From an uncultured Acholeplasmatales bacterium (lineage in GTDB: Bacteria; Bacillota_I; Bacilli_A; Acholeplasmatales; Anaeroplasmataceae), in the NCBI GenBank assembly GCA_905236965.1, contig CAJOQR010000023.1, positions 1-40,797 on the forward strand: a stretch of 40,797 nucleotides of DNA, read 5' to 3'. Positions 28,844 to 34,315 of this stretch are shown here, in pieces. The notes below the pieces were generated by a model. That model was not told where the DNA came from, searched no databases, and worked only from the letters and a program-made list of their open reading frames with translations. The position numbers and the translations under genes were made by a program. Position 1 is the stretch's first letter, and every line of letters starts with the position of its first letter.

Positions 28844-28871
28844 TTGACATAATTTAAAATTTAAGTATAAT
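28844..28871 (+). promoter_or_regulatory. Consensus promoter of the leader/GNAT-PLP operon
   Basis: TTGACA (28844-28849), 16-nt spacer, TATAAT (28866-28871), both perfect consensus. Start near 28878, about 200 nt before the first structural gene. Confidence 0.88.
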
Positions 28872-28921
28872 ATAGTTAACCTAGCAAAATGATAGGAATA
28901 ATAGGGAAGGGCAGAACACAA

Positions 28922-29011
28922 ATGAAAAAGATATTAAACTTCTCACATAAAATGAATATGATGATGTGTGACTATATAAAATTTAATATAGTTTTTTTGT
29001 GTAATGCTTAA
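28922..29011 (+). CDS. Putative Met-rich leader peptide
   Basis: A 29-codon ORF with Met at 1, 11, 13, 14 and 15 and Cys at 16 and 27 (core H-K-M-N-M-M-M-C-D-Y). It ends 19 nt before the terminator hairpin. The purine-rich AGGGAAGGG lies 10 nt upstream of the ATG, slightly far but usable. The clustered Met codons in front of methionine/cysteine enzymes suggest a sensor peptide; in such AT-rich DNA a chance short ORF cannot be excluded. Confidence 0.45.
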   Translation: MKKILNFSHKMNMMMCDYIKFNIVFLCNA

Positions 29012-29029
29012 TTGATTTTAAATTATATT

Positions 29030-29066
29030 AAAAAGTAGAACACAAAATCTACTTTTTATTTTTTTT
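29030..29066 (+). terminator. Leader terminator before the GNAT gene
   Basis: Ten-base perfect arms AAAAAGTAGA (29030-29039) and TCTACTTTTT (29048-29057), 8-nt loop ACACAAAA, then a T-run to 29066. No gene of normal size ends before it, so it acts on the leader transcript or on readthrough. Confidence 0.82.
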
Positions 29067-29080
29067 AAGGGGATGATAAC

Positions 29081-30088
29081 TTGAACATAAATTATAAATA
29101 TAATAATGATTTTATTGATTTTAATGAAGTTAAAAATATTTTATCTTTAGCATTTGAGGGAAGAAAATTTAAAGATGTTGAAAATATTAAAAAAGCTTTT
29201 TTAAATAGTAGTCATGTTATATATGCTTTTCTTGATGAAAAGCTAATTGGTTTTGCAAGGGCAATATCTGATTCTAATTGGTCAATTATTTATAATGTTG
29301 CTGTAAAGCCTAATTATCAAGGCTATGGAGTTGGAAAGGAATTAGTAAAAAGATTAATAGAATCTTTAGGAAATAGGCATATATTTACATTTACTCATCC
29401 TAAAACAATTTCTTTTTATGAGCATTTAGGTTTTGTAAGAAGCAAGATGGCTTTTAAATATGTGAAAAATACTGATGAAAATAGAATTAAATTTCAGCAA
29501 GAAGTTGGTTTCTTTTTAAAAGATGATTTTAGATTCGATAGAGAAAAGGATAAAGTAGAAAAAAATAATTTTAATAAAGAAAAAGATATTAAATATTTTA
29601 CAGATTTAAAAAAAGCATCATTTAAACAAATAAATGATTTGTTAGAAAATGCATTTCATGATAAAAGAGATGAGAATGTTACAAAAGCTGATTTTGAAAA
29701 AAGTCAATTTTATGAGCTTGCCTTTGATAATGATAAATTAGTTGGTATTGCAAGATTATTAACAGATGGTGTAAATGAAGCATTATTATTAAATGTTGCT
29801 GTAGATGAAAAATATCGAGGATTAGGCATAGGAAAAGAAATTGTAAATAGATTATGTGAACAAGCAAAAGGATATGATATATTTTTACATACTCATCCGG
29901 GTGCTGTTAATTTTTATAATCATTCTAAAGAATATAAAAGATATAAAACAGCTTTTGCATATGTTAAAGATGATGAATATAATGATAAATTTTTTTTACC
30001 AAAAGGATATAGGTATACTGATGAGGTAAATAATGAAATAATTAATTCATATAAAATAAAAAAGGAAGGGCTTAAAAATGGCAATTGA
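29081..30088 (+). CDS. Tandem GNAT acetyltransferase
   Basis: Two GNAT N-acetyltransferase domains in one 335-aa chain. Domain 1 (about 1-130) has N-V-A-V-K-P-N-Y-Q80-G-Y-G-V-G; domain 2 (about 170-297) has N-V-A-V-D-E-K-Y-R246-G-L-G-I-G, both acetyl-CoA pyrophosphate loops. Each ends in a T-H-P...F-Y-x-H...A-F-x-Y-V-K block, so this is an internal duplication. The acceptor is unknown (amine of a small molecule, amino acid or protein). The start is TTG with AAGGGG (29067-29072) 8 nt upstream; no ATG fits. First gene of the operon behind the attenuator-like leader. Its end overlaps the ATG of the frameshifted small gene by 11 nt. Confidence 0.85.
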   Translation: MNINYKYNNDFIDFNEVKNILSLAFEGRKFKDVENIKKAFLNSSHVIYAFLDEKLIGFARAISDSNWSIIYNVAVKPNYQGYGVGKELVKRLIESLGNRHIFTFTHPKTISFYEHLGFVRSKMAFKYVKNTDENRIKFQQEVGFFLKDDFRFDREKDKVEKNNFNKEKDIKYFTDLKKASFKQINDLLENAFHDKRDENVTKADFEKSQFYELAFDNDKLVGIARLLTDGVNEALLLNVAVDEKYRGLGIGKEIVNRLCEQAKGYDIFLHTHPGAVNFYNHSKEYKRYKTAFAYVKDDEYNDKFFLPKGYRYTDEVNNEIINSYKIKKEGLKNGN

Positions 30089-30241
30089 TGCATGTGGGAT
30101 AAAAAATCATAAAAGCATTATCATTTATGCTGCGTTCCAAATCCATATTTAATCCTTCCATTAGGGCCAGATCTATCTTTATGGAATACACCTCATGAAA
30201 AGATAAAATATATAAATAAAAGAAAGGTTGCGATATTTTGA
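30078..30241 (+). pseudogene. Small gene broken by one frameshift
   Basis: GAAGGG (30064-30069) is followed 8 nt later by ATG 30078, overlapping the GNAT end. This frame codes M-A-I-D-A-C-G-I-K-N-H-K-S-I-I-I-Y-A-A-F and stops at 30150-30152. The -1 frame is open from 30113 and continues as N-P-Y-L-I-L-P-L-G-P-D-L-S-L-W-N-T-P-H-E, ending K-V-A-I-F at TGA 30239-30241, which overlaps the next gene's TTG. Joined, it would be a protein of about 54 aa with typical operon overlaps at both ends. The break must lie between 30113 and 30150. Family not recognised. A sequencing or assembly error is as likely as a true pseudogene. Confidence 0.5.
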
Positions 30242-31362
30242 TTAACAAAGAAAGACTTATAAATGAATTTATTAATTTAACAAAAATTGATTCAGAATCA
30301 TTTAATGAAAAAGAAATTCAAAATTATGTTAAAAACAAATTAGAATCTCTAGGATTAAATGTAAAAGAAGATAATTCTTATATAAATTATAAAAAATATA
30401 CTAATAGTGAAAATATCGCAAATAATTTATATGCTAGCTTAAAAGGTGAAAATGATAATATAATTTTATCTGCTCACCTAGATACTGTTTCACCAGGTAA
30501 AAATAAAAAAGCTATTGTTTTAAATGATAGAATTACATCAGATAAAACAACAGTTTTAGGAGCTGATTGCTTAAGTGCAGTTGCTTCAATAATTGAAGTT
30601 CTTAATATAATTAAAGAAAATAATATAAAGCATAAAAATATTGAAATAGTTTTTTTTGTTGCTGAAGAGCCATTTGCTAAAGGAAGTAGATATTTTGATT
30701 ATAGCTTATTAAAATCAAAAGAAGCATATGTTTTTGATTTAGAAGGCGGAATTAATAATGTTGCGATAAAAGCTCCTGCAATAATTTCTTTTGATGTTAA
30801 AATAAAAGGTAAAGCATCTCATGCAGGCTTTAATCCAGAAGATGGAATAAATGCTTTATCTATTTTAAATGATGCTTTAAATGAAATTAAATTAGGAAGA
30901 CTTGATGAATTTACTACTTTAAATATTGGAATTATAAATGGTGGTAGTGGTGTTAATATTGTTCCTGAATTAATTGAATTAAAAGGTGAAATTAGAAGCT
31001 TAGACAATGCTATAGCAAAAGAAAAATTAAATGAATTAGAAAAAATATTTACAAAAAATGCAGAATCTTATGGTGGTGGCATTGATTTTTCATATGAAAA
31101 AGAATTTGATGCATATCAAATAGATAAAGATGATAATATTGTTAAAAATTATGTTAAAGCTTTAAGAAAAATCAATAATGATGAAATTAATTATATTAAA
31201 ACTTTTGGTGGATCTGATAATAATAATTTAAATATGAATAAAATTAAAGGAATTGTTATTGGAAATGGTATGAGAAATGTTCATTCTAAAGATGAATATA
31301 TTTTAATTGATGATTTAATAAATACAGCAGAATTGATTTTAAATTTAGTAAGTATAGAATAG
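30238..31362 (+). CDS. PepT/YqjE-like M20 metallopeptidase
   Basis: Di-zinc aminopeptidase-type hydrolase of family M20 (374 aa). Ligands and catalytic residues are all present: H80-x-D82 (S-A-H-L-D-T), D110 (L-G-A-D-C), E143-E144 (V-A-E-E-P), D167 (V-F-D-L-E-G), H349 (R-N-V-H-S-K-D-E). The usual G-A-D-D-K reads G-A-D-C-L, an unusual change next to the ligand. The dimerisation domain is at about 180-290. It likely trims di- or tripeptides in the cytosol, though M20 members also deacylate N-acyl amino acids. TTG start at 30238 with GAAAGG about 11 nt upstream. Eight bases from its end to the next ATG region, same operon. Confidence 0.88.
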   Translation: MINKERLINEFINLTKIDSESFNEKEIQNYVKNKLESLGLNVKEDNSYINYKKYTNSENIANNLYASLKGENDNIILSAHLDTVSPGKNKKAIVLNDRITSDKTTVLGADCLSAVASIIEVLNIIKENNIKHKNIEIVFFVAEEPFAKGSRYFDYSLLKSKEAYVFDLEGGINNVAIKAPAIISFDVKIKGKASHAGFNPEDGINALSILNDALNEIKLGRLDEFTTLNIGIINGGSGVNIVPELIELKGEIRSLDNAIAKEKLNELEKIFTKNAESYGGGIDFSYEKEFDAYQIDKDDNIVKNYVKALRKINNDEINYIKTFGGSDNNNLNMNKIKGIVIGNGMRNVHSKDEYILIDDLINTAELILNLVSIE

Positions 31363-31369
31363 GTGTTTT

Positions 31370-32038
31370 ATGAATTTTTTTGTTGAAAAAAAAGTATTAG
31401 ATTTGGGATTAAAAATTAAATTTGTTGTTATTGAAAATATAAATAATTTAAAAGAAATTAATTATTTTGAAAAAAATAATTTAAATGAATTAATAAAAAA
31501 ATATGAAAATATAAATTTAGAAGAAGATGAAATTTTAAAAGGTTATCATAAAATTCATGAAAATGGTAACATTTCAAAAAGAAAAAATATCCCTGCAAGT
31601 GAAAATTTAATTAGATTATTAATAGAAAAAAAGACTATGTATAATATTAATCCAATAGTTGATATATATAATTATATTTCAATAAAAACAAAAATATGTT
31701 TAGGTGCTCATGATATAGATAAAACAGATGGTGATGTTACTTTAAGATTTCACAATGGCTTAGAAAATTATAAACCAATTGGAATTAATACATCTAGTAA
31801 TGTTAAATTAAATGAATATTCATATATAGATTCAAATAATGACATTTTATGTAGATTAGAAGTAAGACAGGTTGAAAAAACTAAAATAACAGAAAAATCA
31901 AAAAATGTTTTTTATATTGTAGAAGGCAATGATAAAACAACTGATGAATATTTAGTTAGTGTATGTAATGAAATAATATCAGAAACAACTAAAATTTTAG
32001 GTGGAAAAGGATATATTGAAGAGGTAAAAATAATATGA
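31370..32038 (+). CDS. Free-standing B3/4 (PheRS beta-like) domain protein
   Basis: A 222-aa protein whose residues about 85-215 match the B3/B4 domain of phenylalanyl-tRNA synthetase beta: the segment N-P-I-V-D-I-Y-N-Y-I-S, then G-A-H-D-I-D-K, G-D-V-T-L-R-F, and a closing region with T-E-K-S-K-N-V-F-Y-I-V-E-G. In PheRS this domain hydrolyses mischarged Tyr-tRNA; stand-alone copies are common in Bacillota and may edit tRNA or act on amino-acid derivatives. The N-terminal 80 residues are helical and charged. AGGTG (31361-31365) precedes the ATG. It overlaps the next gene by ATGA, so translation is coupled. Confidence 0.8.
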   Translation: MNFFVEKKVLDLGLKIKFVVIENINNLKEINYFEKNNLNELIKKYENINLEEDEILKGYHKIHENGNISKRKNIPASENLIRLLIEKKTMYNINPIVDIYNYISIKTKICLGAHDIDKTDGDVTLRFHNGLENYKPIGINTSSNVKLNEYSYIDSNNDILCRLEVRQVEKTKITEKSKNVFYIVEGNDKTTDEYLVSVCNEIISETTKILGGKGYIEEVKII

Positions 32039-33168
32039 AATTTGAAACATTATGTGTACATCCAAATATAAATGAAGATGAATATGGTGCAATTACAACT
32101 CCAATATATCAATCTGCAACCTTTATTCATAAAGATTTAAATTATTCAAAATATAGCTATTCAAGATTATCTAATCCTACTAGAAATCATTTAGAGGATT
32201 TAGTAATGAAATTAGAACAAGGTAAATCCTGTAATGCCTTTTCTACAGGAATGGCAGCTATAACAACAGTTTTTAAATTATTTAAATCAGGAGATCATTT
32301 TATTGCATCAAGTGATTTATATGGTGGTGCTTTAAGATTATTTAGAACATTAGAAAAAGATAATTATTCTTTTGATTTTGTTGATACATCTAATTTAGAT
32401 TTAATAAAATCAAAAATAAATAAAAATACTAAAGCAGTCTATATTGAAACTCCATCAAATCCATTAATGATTGTATCTGATATAGAAAAAATAAGTAAAA
32501 TATGCAGAGAAAATAATTTATTATTAATCGTTGATAATACATTTTTAACACCATATTTTCAAAATCCAATTCTTTTAGGTGCTGATATAGTAATACATAG
32601 TGGAACAAAATATTTAGGAGGCCATAATGATACATTAGCAGGTTTTGTTGTTACAAATTCTAATAAATTAGGTGAAGATATTTTATATTATGCTAAAACT
32701 ATTGGTGGATGCTTATCTCCTTTTGATTCTTTTTTGATTGAAAGAGGAATAAAAACTCTTTCTTTAAGAATGGATAAAATAAATTCTAATGCTAAAATTA
32801 TTGCTGAATTTTTAAAAACATTGCCATGTATAAAAAAAGTATTATATGTTGGTTTAGAAGATAATCCAGGCTATGAAATAAATAAAAAGCAATCAAGAGG
32901 CTCTGGCGGTATGATTTCTATTGTTGTTGAAAGCGCTGAAATTGCTAAAAGGATTTTAACAAATGTTAAAATTTTTAAATATGCTGAATCCTTAGGTGGT
33001 GTTGATTCTTTAATTACATATCCAATGTATCAAACTCATGCTGATTTACCTATAAAAGAAAGAGAAGAAAAAGGCATAAATGAATGCTTTTTAAGAATTT
33101 CAGTTGGTATTGAAAATCCAATAGATTTAATAAATGATCTAAAGGAGGCTATTTATGGCGATGTATGA
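32035..33168 (+). CDS. Cys/Met-metabolism PLP enzyme (cystathionine gamma-synthase or lyase)
   Basis: Trans-sulfuration family PLP enzyme (377 aa). The PLP lysine is K192 in S-G-T-K-Y-L-G-G-H-N-D; other signatures are Y-S-R-L-S-N-P-T-R, F-S-T-G-M-A-A-I, the cofactor aspartate in V-D-N-T-F, and F-L-R-I-S-V-G-I-E near the end. The family includes MetB, MetI, MetC, MccB and methionine gamma-lyase, which cannot be separated by eye. With the MalY-type lyase right after it, a cystathionine gamma-synthase plus beta-lyase pair (cysteine to homocysteine) is plausible; a reverse trans-sulfuration or salvage role is the alternative. ATGA overlap with the B3/4 gene; 14-nt overlap with the next. Confidence 0.9.
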   Translation: MKFETLCVHPNINEDEYGAITTPIYQSATFIHKDLNYSKYSYSRLSNPTRNHLEDLVMKLEQGKSCNAFSTGMAAITTVFKLFKSGDHFIASSDLYGGALRLFRTLEKDNYSFDFVDTSNLDLIKSKINKNTKAVYIETPSNPLMIVSDIEKISKICRENNLLLIVDNTFLTPYFQNPILLGADIVIHSGTKYLGGHNDTLAGFVVTNSNKLGEDILYYAKTIGGCLSPFDSFLIERGIKTLSLRMDKINSNAKIIAEFLKTLPCIKKVLYVGLEDNPGYEINKKQSRGSGGMISIVVESAEIAKRILTNVKIFKYAESLGGVDSLITYPMYQTHADLPIKEREEKGINECFLRISVGIENPIDLINDLKEAIYGDV

Positions 33169-34315
33169 TTTTGATTTAGAAATAAATAGATATAATACTA
33201 ATAGCTTAAAATATGATATCAAAAGAGGAAGACCAGATAATATATTTCCTCTTTGGGTAGCAGATATGGATTTTAAATCACCAGATTTTTTAATTGATGA
33301 ATTAATATCTAAAGCAAATCATGGCATTTTTGGATATAGTGAACCATTAGATGATTATTTTATTGCATTAAAAGGTTATTATAAAAGACAATATGATATA
33401 GATATTGATACATCAAAAATAAAATTAACAAATGGAGTTGTTTTTTCAATTTGTCAATTAATTAGATCAATAACAAAAGAAAATGATTCTATAATAATAA
33501 ATGAACCAGTATATTATCCTTTTAAATCAAGTATTTTAGCTAATAATAGAAAGGTTGTAATTAATAATTTAGTTAATAAAAATAATAAATATTATTTTGA
33601 TTATTTAGATTTTGAACAAAAAATTATTGAAAATAATGTTAAAGCATATATTTTATGCAATCCTCATAATCCAGTTGGAAGAGCATGGGATGAAGATGAA
33701 TTAATAAAAATAATAAACATTTGTAAAAAACATAATGTTTTTATTATATCAGATGAAATACATGCTGATTTTGTTTATAATAAAAAATTTAATTCTATAT
33801 TAAAATATTTAGATAATAATTTTGCAGTATGTAGTGCATTAACAAAAACATTTAATATTCCAGGACTACAAATAGCACACACATATATAGCAGATGAAAA
33901 TATAATGGATAAATTTTTACATGAATTAGATTGTGTAGGATATTCTCAATTATCAATTTTTGGACTTGTAGCAAGCCAAGTTTTATTTGAAAAGGGCGAT
34001 GAATATTTATACGAATTAAAAAAATATTTATGGGATAATATTTTATTTACAAAAGAATTTTTAGAAAAAAAATTACCTAAATTAAAATTAATAATTCCTG
34101 AAGCTACATATTTATTATGGATAGATTTTAATGAATATAATATTTCAGATAAGGAATTAAAAAATATAATTATAAATAAATGTAATTTATGGTTAGATGA
34201 TGGAATTATATTTGGATTATCTGGTAAAGGTTTTCAAAGAATAAATATAGCACTACCAAGAAAAAAATTAGAACAAGCTTTGAATCAATTATATGATGGT
34301 TTTAAAGATTTATAA
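33155..34315 (+). CDS. MalY/PatB-type cystathionine beta-lyase
   Basis: Fold-type I aminotransferase-like PLP enzyme (386 aa) of the MalY/PatB group: early P-L-W-V-A-D-M-D-F, N-P-H-N-P-V-G-R, the D-E-I-H-A-D-F cofactor aspartate, and K231 in S-A-L-T-K-T-F-N-I-P-G-L-Q. These enzymes cleave C-S bonds of cystathionine or S-substituted cysteines to a thiol, pyruvate and ammonia. AGGAGG (33142-33147) gives the start 7 nt later, inside the previous gene. Last gene of the operon, closed by a terminator at 34321. Confidence 0.9.
   Translation: MAMYDFDLEINRYNTNSLKYDIKRGRPDNIFPLWVADMDFKSPDFLIDELISKANHGIFGYSEPLDDYFIALKGYYKRQYDIDIDTSKIKLTNGVVFSICQLIRSITKENDSIIINEPVYYPFKSSILANNRKVVINNLVNKNNKYYFDYLDFEQKIIENNVKAYILCNPHNPVGRAWDEDELIKIINICKKHNVFIISDEIHADFVYNKKFNSILKYLDNNFAVCSALTKTFNIPGLQIAHTYIADENIMDKFLHELDCVGYSQLSIFGLVASQVLFEKGDEYLYELKKYLWDNILFTKEFLEKKLPKLKLIIPEATYLLWIDFNEYNISDKELKNIIINKCNLWLDDGIIFGLSGKGFQRINIALPRKKLEQALNQLYDGFKDL

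Follow-up and report, generated by a model that had tools for sequence, protein, structure and literature searches.

Results and Discussion

The leader and its operon

On the forward strand of the window (the whole stretch of 40,797 nt that was analysed, from an uncultured Bacillota bacterium of the gut or rumen), a promoter, a short leader ORF and two hairpins, T1 and T2, precede an operon for an acetyltransferase, a peptidase, a B3/4-domain protein and two enzymes of sulfur amino-acid metabolism; the features are collected in Table 1. A sequence-only reading had proposed a methionine attenuator at this locus, and when the sequence of the window was re-read, all of its coordinates were confirmed. 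This holds for the perfect-consensus promoter, the 29-codon ORF whose codons 11, 13, 14 and 15 specify Met, the intrinsic terminator after it, and the cystathionine gamma-synthase-type enzyme and MalY-type beta-lyase of the operon, as well as for the remark that the downstream genes are not all methionine genes, since the first encodes an acetyltransferase and is no dedicated methionine gene. All parts named in that reading are present, but it overlooked T1, the start-site palindrome and an inward pairing of 29005-29016 with 29027-29037.

Table 1. Positions of the leader elements and downstream genes in the window.
Feature	Position	Strand	Basis
Sigma-A type promoter, TTGACA-16-TATAAT	28844..28871	+	12/12 consensus matches; kept in homologous leaders
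Palindrome CCTAGCAAAATGATAGG at start site, probable Rrf2 (CymR/IscR-like) repressor operator	28880..28896	+	motif recurs in aligned leaders
SD-like GGGAAGGG of leader ORF	28904..28911	+	sequence read; purine-rich SD conserved in alignment A1
Leader ORF, 29 codons, MKKILNFSHKMNMMMCDYIKFNIVFLCNA, stop TAA 29009-29011	28922..29011	+	homologous ORFs in sister genomes
Candidate stall codons Met11, Met13, Met14, Met15, Cys16	28952..28969	+	sequence read and shuffle test
T1, hairpin GACTATAT/ATATAGTT and T-run within leader ORF, directly 3' of Met/Cys codons	28970..28998	+	counterpart of relatives' CTGTAT/ATACAG and T-run
Antiterminator 5' side (28995-29002 pairs 29040-29047; 29005-29009 pairs 29033-29037; 29012-29016 pairs 29027-29031)	28995..29016	+	nascent RNA fold
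T2, intrinsic terminator AAAAAGTAGA-ACACAAAA-TCTACTTTTT and ATTTTTTTT	29030..29066	+	sequence read; stem AAAAAGTAGA/TCTACTTTTT = 29030-29057, then T-run
Double GNAT acetyltransferase, first gene	29081..30088	+	
M20 peptidase (PepT-like)	30238..31362	+	
B3/4-domain protein	31370..32038	+	
Cys/Met metabolism PLP enzyme (cystathionine gamma-lyase/synthase type)	32035..33168	+	
PatB/MalY family C-S lyase	33155..34315	+	TIGR04350 above cut-off

The leader ORF holds four Met and two Cys codons in total, with four Met and one Cys in the run Met11-Cys16. Five Met/Cys within six residues of a short ORF preceded by an SD were reached in none of 2000 dinucleotide shuffles of the window leader, so that a cluster arising by chance is unlikely. 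The genes downstream are predicted to act on the amino acids that would be read, these being the gamma-lyase/synthase-type and PatB/MalY enzymes in the window and a cystine-type transporter in relatives.

A leader family in sister genomes

In a search at the DNA level over 40 related genomes, matching leaders were found in the same genus, often several per genome. A model built on six sister-genome leaders with the window excluded (R1) gave the window leader a score of 67.9 bits, with E-values of 1.1e-8 (search of the window) and 3.9e-7 (search of its genome), and the next match in the window had 16.3 bits; because the window was left out of the model, this homology was predicted and not fitted. 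When 160 genomes of the order were searched with R1, all hits fell within this genus; a broader model (R2), run over 395 genomes of the class, again gave strong hits in the genus only, together with two weak matches outside it (3e-4 and 7e-4).

Besides the window leader the genus has at least 16 others built alike, one of them at another locus of the window's genome, and all contain clustered Met and Cys codons. The predicted short ORF with clustered Met/Cys codons is conserved in 17 leaders, which lie 5' of cystine-type ABC transporter, GST/M20 or metB/malY operons. The operons of the family encode cystine-type ABC transporters, GST C-terminal domain proteins, M20 peptidases, acetyltransferases and the metB-type and PatB/MalY-type pair; the transporter parts (substrate-binding protein family 3, permease and ATPase) have cystine transporters as their best NCBIfam relatives, with scores below the equivalog cut-offs. 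Examples of sister leader ORFs are MKTIGLINNINMMNMMMCCMCFMMQNTAFSGGPIPKTLS, MRNINLFTMNINMMMCCMCNMHNTVFYLGLYPINNL and MKNINFKRVNMNMMMCCMCMFTNTDFYSWHNS, and inspection upstream of orthologous operons revealed diverged leaders, each of which again contains both Met and Cys codons. Conserved blocks comprise the promoter, the palindrome, the SD, the start and the Met/Cys codons, and four elements recur: the start-site palindrome, the leader ORF, T1 and T2. Thus, the comparison across relatives that the sequence-only reading had proposed turned up the Met-codon leader ORF, the antiterminator/terminator design and the sulfur genes downstream in sister genomes; the notion of a purely methionine-responsive attenuator needs widening, as the family would read Cys as well as Met.

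The second leader of the window's genome, MLNFKLSNSSKFNMCFGCCMCCCTTLFALPYSNIKTIS, stands before a gene for a cystine-type substrate-binding protein (G000:C69) and is Cys-heavy (six Cys, two Met), whereas the window leader is Met-heavy. This is suggestive of codon tuning per operon in this genome, for a transporter on one side and Met-pathway genes on the other; over all 17 leaders the Met-versus-Cys difference by operon is not clear-cut.

Hairpins, antiterminator and ribosome position

The 5' arm of T1 starts at the Met/Cys codons and a U-run follows the 3' arm, all inside the ORF. The core in relatives is CTGTAT/ATACAG, from which the CTATAT/ATATAG of the window differs by one two-sided change of G-C to A-U, and the core of the G000:C69 leader is GTTGTA/TACAAC. 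T1 is located at the Met/Cys codons in 13 leaders; a convincing T1 was not found in the diverged leaders of G012, G015 (two) and G040c. T2, the predicted intrinsic terminator between the leader ORF and the first gene, is present in all ten leaders examined. In the window it is AU-rich with only two G-C pairs, which is why a terminator scan with a threshold of three G-C did not list it.

The complementarity of TTTTGTGT at 28995-29002 to the T2 loop ACACAAAA at 29040-29047, pointed out in the sequence-only reading, is real, but the antiterminator is longer than the 8 bp given there, as it has two inner helices. When nascent RNA was folded before the T2 3' arm had been made, the end of the ORF paired with the T2 5' arm and loop in all ten leaders. 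The pairing letters vary by leader while the topology is kept (TTTTGTGT:ACACAAAA in the window, CATAATTCAT:ATGGATTATG in G007a/G008a, and TTGGAC:GTCTAA with TCC:GGA in G003). With ribosomes represented by masking, the probability that the nascent T2 5' arm is paired upstream was 0.48-0.88 in the stall versus 0-0.52 with the ribosome at the stop codon over the ten leaders, and the computed antiterminator probability in the window was 0.63 versus 0.08, which supports the proposed ribosome-position switch between antiterminator and terminator. Terminator and antiterminator are thus mutually exclusive and dependent on ribosome position in the computed folds, strongly so in most leaders and less clearly in G007b, G008b and G040.

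Compared with shuffled spacers, the antiterminator was better at p < 0.03 in seven of ten leaders (Fisher p = 2e-8, pooled over ten partly related leaders among which the G007/G008 pairs are close relatives), and it was no better than shuffled spacers in G007b and G008b. The energy of the window antiterminator is modest against shuffles (p = 0.018), so the 8-bp match alone is weak, and it is the family that makes the case convincing.

At equilibrium the free window RNA favours the antiterminator (P(T2) = 0.08). Untranslated RNA would therefore escape termination if neither T1 nor a pairing of the start region prevented this, and basal termination must come from one of the two; in the full-length minimum-energy fold the start region (about 28910-28923) is paired with 28994-29010. 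In G003, G042 and G040, T2 forms at equilibrium even during the stall, so that the switch there would have to be kinetic.

The decamer AGAACACAAA occurs twice, at 28913-28922 just before the leader start codon and at 29038-29047 in the T2 arm/loop. Either copy could thus be the partner of 28995-29002, and the full-length fold takes the upstream one. This repeat may be due to chance.

Proposed mechanism and alternative explanations

We put the probability at about 85% that the window leader is a ribosome-mediated transcription attenuator reading the supply of charged Met-tRNA (and Cys-tRNA). RNA polymerase would start at the promoter and make the leader, and the ribosome behind it would translate the 29-codon ORF. 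When Met or Cys is short, the ribosome would stall on Met11-Cys16, covering the T1 5' arm and freeing the 3' part of the ORF, which would fold with the T2 5' arm and loop into the antiterminator, so that the operon is transcribed. When both amino acids are plentiful, the ribosome would reach the stop at 29009 and cover about 28995-29022, blocking the antiterminator, upon which T2 would form and transcription would stop. The start-site palindrome probably adds repression by an Rrf2 (CymR/IscR-like) protein.

A more elaborate scheme is possible, though we consider it less likely than not. This would be a two-amino-acid attenuator with two checkpoints, where T1 terminates without a ribosome and T2 when the ribosome finishes, so that only a Met/Cys-stalled ribosome passes both; the codon mix would be tuned per operon (Cys-heavy before the cystine-type transporter and Met-heavy before metB/malY), with the Rrf2 operator on top.

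The leader peptide could instead be a regulatory arrest peptide, stalling on a ligand such as SAM or cysteine and not for want of charged tRNA. Plant cystathionine gamma-synthase uses a SAM-dependent arrest peptide, and the core NMMMC(C/S)MC is alike in close leaders, as would be expected of such a peptide. Peptides in the same role, however, vary freely with only their Met/Cys content kept (MCFGCCMCCC, MMRMCM, MCNMMYM, MMMCLCCMPMC), and the stretch that specifies the C-terminal NTxF, alike between peptides, is also the T1 3' arm and U-run, which explains this likeness at the RNA level. We therefore consider an arrest peptide improbable.

The palindrome and a probable Rrf2 layer

The palindrome is the most conserved element of the leader. 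It lies between the own -10 and the start codon in 17 of 18 close Rrf2 homologues of the genus, including that on G000:C141 (positions 419-829; L277, L290); there the -10 of the Rrf2 gene is followed by the perfect palindrome CCTAGTGTAAAACTAGG, and a cysteine synthase gene lies downstream of the Rrf2 gene. Rrf2-family genes also adjoin several of the leader-bearing operons. In the window's genome the strict palindrome pattern matches the two sulfur leaders and one unrelated site only; a loose pattern of promoter plus palindrome was not above a reversed control in total counts, and only tighter-consensus matches were used. Since the Rrf2 genes carry the same palindrome, it is probably the operator of an Rrf2 (CymR/IscR-like) repressor, which would bind both at the leader promoter and at its own gene. 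We also considered the palindrome as a stabilising 5' RNA hairpin, but rejected this because its presence at the Rrf2 genes points to a DNA operator. The Rrf2 proteins score 90-95 bits against the CymR cut-off of 195 and about 119 against the IscR cut-off of 208, and because these scores are below both cut-offs, the name of the protein is left open.

The CymR (Rrf2) cysteine regulon of Bacillus and Staphylococcus (summarised in PMC9338935) likewise links an Rrf2 protein with cysteine synthase and sulfur genes, whereas here the predicted operator is combined with leader-peptide attenuators and the proteins fall under the CymR/IscR cut-offs. A repressor at the palindrome could also be the only regulation, with the leader ORF and hairpins as evolutionary remnants, and such a view would agree with the conservation of the palindrome, its presence at the Rrf2 genes themselves and the cysteine synthase gene after the Rrf2 gene in G000. 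Unlike remnants, the leader ORFs, T1 and the antiterminator/terminator pairs are kept despite changing sequence, so we find this explanation as improbable as the arrest peptide and retain attenuation with a probable Rrf2 layer.

T-boxes, riboswitches and chance

T-boxes, riboswitches and repressors are the controls usually described for amino-acid genes of Bacillota. The window leader gave no Rfam match at gathering or relaxed thresholds, and neither a T-box (RF00230) nor a SAM riboswitch (S-box, RF00162) was matched in the window; its genome has 13 T-boxes and one SAM riboswitch (G000:C49) elsewhere. Genomes of the genus have 9-14 T-boxes each, and 24 of 27 also carry a SAM riboswitch. Those T-boxes of the window's genome that were sampled stand, judged by sequence, before serS, ileS and argG-type genes among others and not before the sulfur operons. 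Peptide attenuation would thus coexist with both.

Another explanation takes the 5' part as a metabolite riboswitch with an incidental short ORF. The full leader is structured end to end and folds better than shuffles (z = -2.9), which would suit an aptamer, but against it stand the absent Rfam match, the aligned leaders, in which a conserved unpaired aptamer core outside the ORF was not seen, and the terminator-proximal pairing, which tracks the position of the stop codon; a riboswitch is hence slightly less probable than the arrest peptide or repression alone. A chance ORF over an ordinary terminator is the least credible explanation, as the many short ORFs of AT-rich DNA and the modest antiterminator of the window taken alone are outweighed by the hold-out match, the shuffle test and the recurrence before the same genes.

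Comparison with known systems

In the classical trp/his/leu attenuators of Enterobacteria the stall codons lie in the 5' arm of the first hairpin, and the position of the stop codon decides between antiterminator and terminator. The window leader shares both traits, but its stop lies beyond the first hairpin, within the 5' side of the antiterminator, the first hairpin has its own U-run, and two amino acids would be read. For comparable Met/Cys leaders, most known cases are from Actinobacteria. In Streptomyces lividans the metL leader MSTTSDRTPATEATTTPGARCMCRRMCAF before metNIQ was proposed as an attenuator, and no typical intrinsic terminator was found (PMC8079986). With the leaders described here it shares a short leader peptide, Met codons interspersed with Cys codons and a position in front of a transporter for sulfur amino acids, but it is actinobacterial and a leaderless ORF, without mutually exclusive hairpins shown, and by eye there is no sequence resemblance. 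Leader peptides with Cys runs also precede cys/cbs operons in Mycobacterium, Propionibacterium and Bifidobacterium (PMC1262725); these differ in having no terminator hairpins, a supposed Rho-dependent mechanism and Cys codons near the stop (PMC1262725).

Ribosome-mediated attenuation was also proposed for uORFC-8-2 before cysS in Rhodobacterales (PMC8632094), with tandem Cys codons in the first stem and then a terminator with a U-run, as here; that leader has Cys but no Met codons, precedes a tRNA-synthetase gene and is alpha-proteobacterial. Closer in lineage is uORFC-13-1 before aroF in Acholeplasma (PMC8632094), a putative leader-peptide attenuator in a low-GC relative of Bacilli, which differs in its Phe codons and aromatic pathway. 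In the open-licence literature, Met/Cys leaders were not found described in Bacillota, and of the published relatives by mechanism not one has both Met and Cys codons together with a terminator/antiterminator pair or belongs to this lineage. The suggestion that a peptide attenuator here would be new is therefore right for the lineage, the mixed codons and the architecture, but the idea itself is known from Streptomyces metL (PMC8079986).

Other Met/Cys leaders

In ten sister genomes, genes for a metY-type O-acetylhomoserine sulfhydrylase are preceded by a second class of leaders (L239, L240, L241, L242, L243, L244, L245, L246, L247, L249). It has the same promoter and palindrome and a short Met/Cys ORF (e.g., MAIMSSRCMGLARMYHFYIKKRATISCWAHK, MMLMTDMCGCDCCSDMGGCK); neither an intrinsic terminator nor an Rfam match was seen in these leaders. 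Several of them contain a conserved element of the AGTCATAATGTCAT type that is able to base-pair with their own SD/start (GTGATATTATGGCT), and G022 shows a matching change; this class may act on translation. The leader ends of L194 and L202 (G015, G012) share NTWRCFRMC (GGCGATGTTTCCGAATGTG), which resembles CGATGTATGGGCTATGCCCGAATGTG in the metY leaders, with a shared RNA motif CGATGT...CGAATGTG as a possible explanation. By eye, a tiny MSYxNxFxVFxRC-like ORF ending with, or close to, a Cys codon was noticed shortly 5' of the first gene in L005 (G005), L197 (G012, - strand, about 3890) and L200 (G040, about 4946), its stop overlapping the SD in L200; cysteine-dependent translational coupling is possible.

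Outside the genus, an exact Met/Cys DNA pattern was scanned over GTDB contigs of public genomes. Most matches were chance ones in unrelated frames, and real-looking ones were obtained only in RUG12899 (same contig as G003), Trichococcus and Balneolaceae, the latter two being unrelated groups with MMCCMC leaders. In two Balneolaceae/Bacteroidota MAGs (L123, 6327 on the - strand; L124, 1901 on the + strand) the leader peptides MNTQHFNSAICYMMHTCCAMMCCMCMPKGSGAKCSIKF and MNNQFLNFTICTMMCICMSMMCCMCICMRKDSGRKIIG, with a terminator, precede a rhodanese / sulfite reductase / PAPS reductase operon, and their antiterminator is clean and covarying (GGTAGTGG:CCACTACC in one, GATAGTGGG:CCCACTATC in the other), so on its predicted folds this is an independent Met/Cys attenuator. 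In six Trichococcus records (L081, L097, L099, L133, L139, L143) a LysR-type regulator gene follows a shared leader that starts MQ[KM]MMCCMCGCKKHAG and has both a promoter and the terminator-like GTGCATG...CATGCACTTTTTTT.

Conclusions

It appears largely right to count the window leader among attenuators with mixed Met/Cys leader peptides, which form a small family in one genus, were not found described in the open-licence literature and are combined with a probable Rrf2 operator. These genomes are rich in T-boxes and most have a SAM riboswitch, yet for sulfur amino acids they seem to make use of peptide attenuation of the E. coli kind. At these leaders at least, such attenuation implies that transcription and translation are closely coupled; reports on Bacillus subtilis describe uncoupled ("runaway") transcription. 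The Met/Cys leaders in Balneolaceae and, less certainly, in Trichococcus suggest that this solution arose several times and has escaped notice because ORFs of this kind are too short for annotation.
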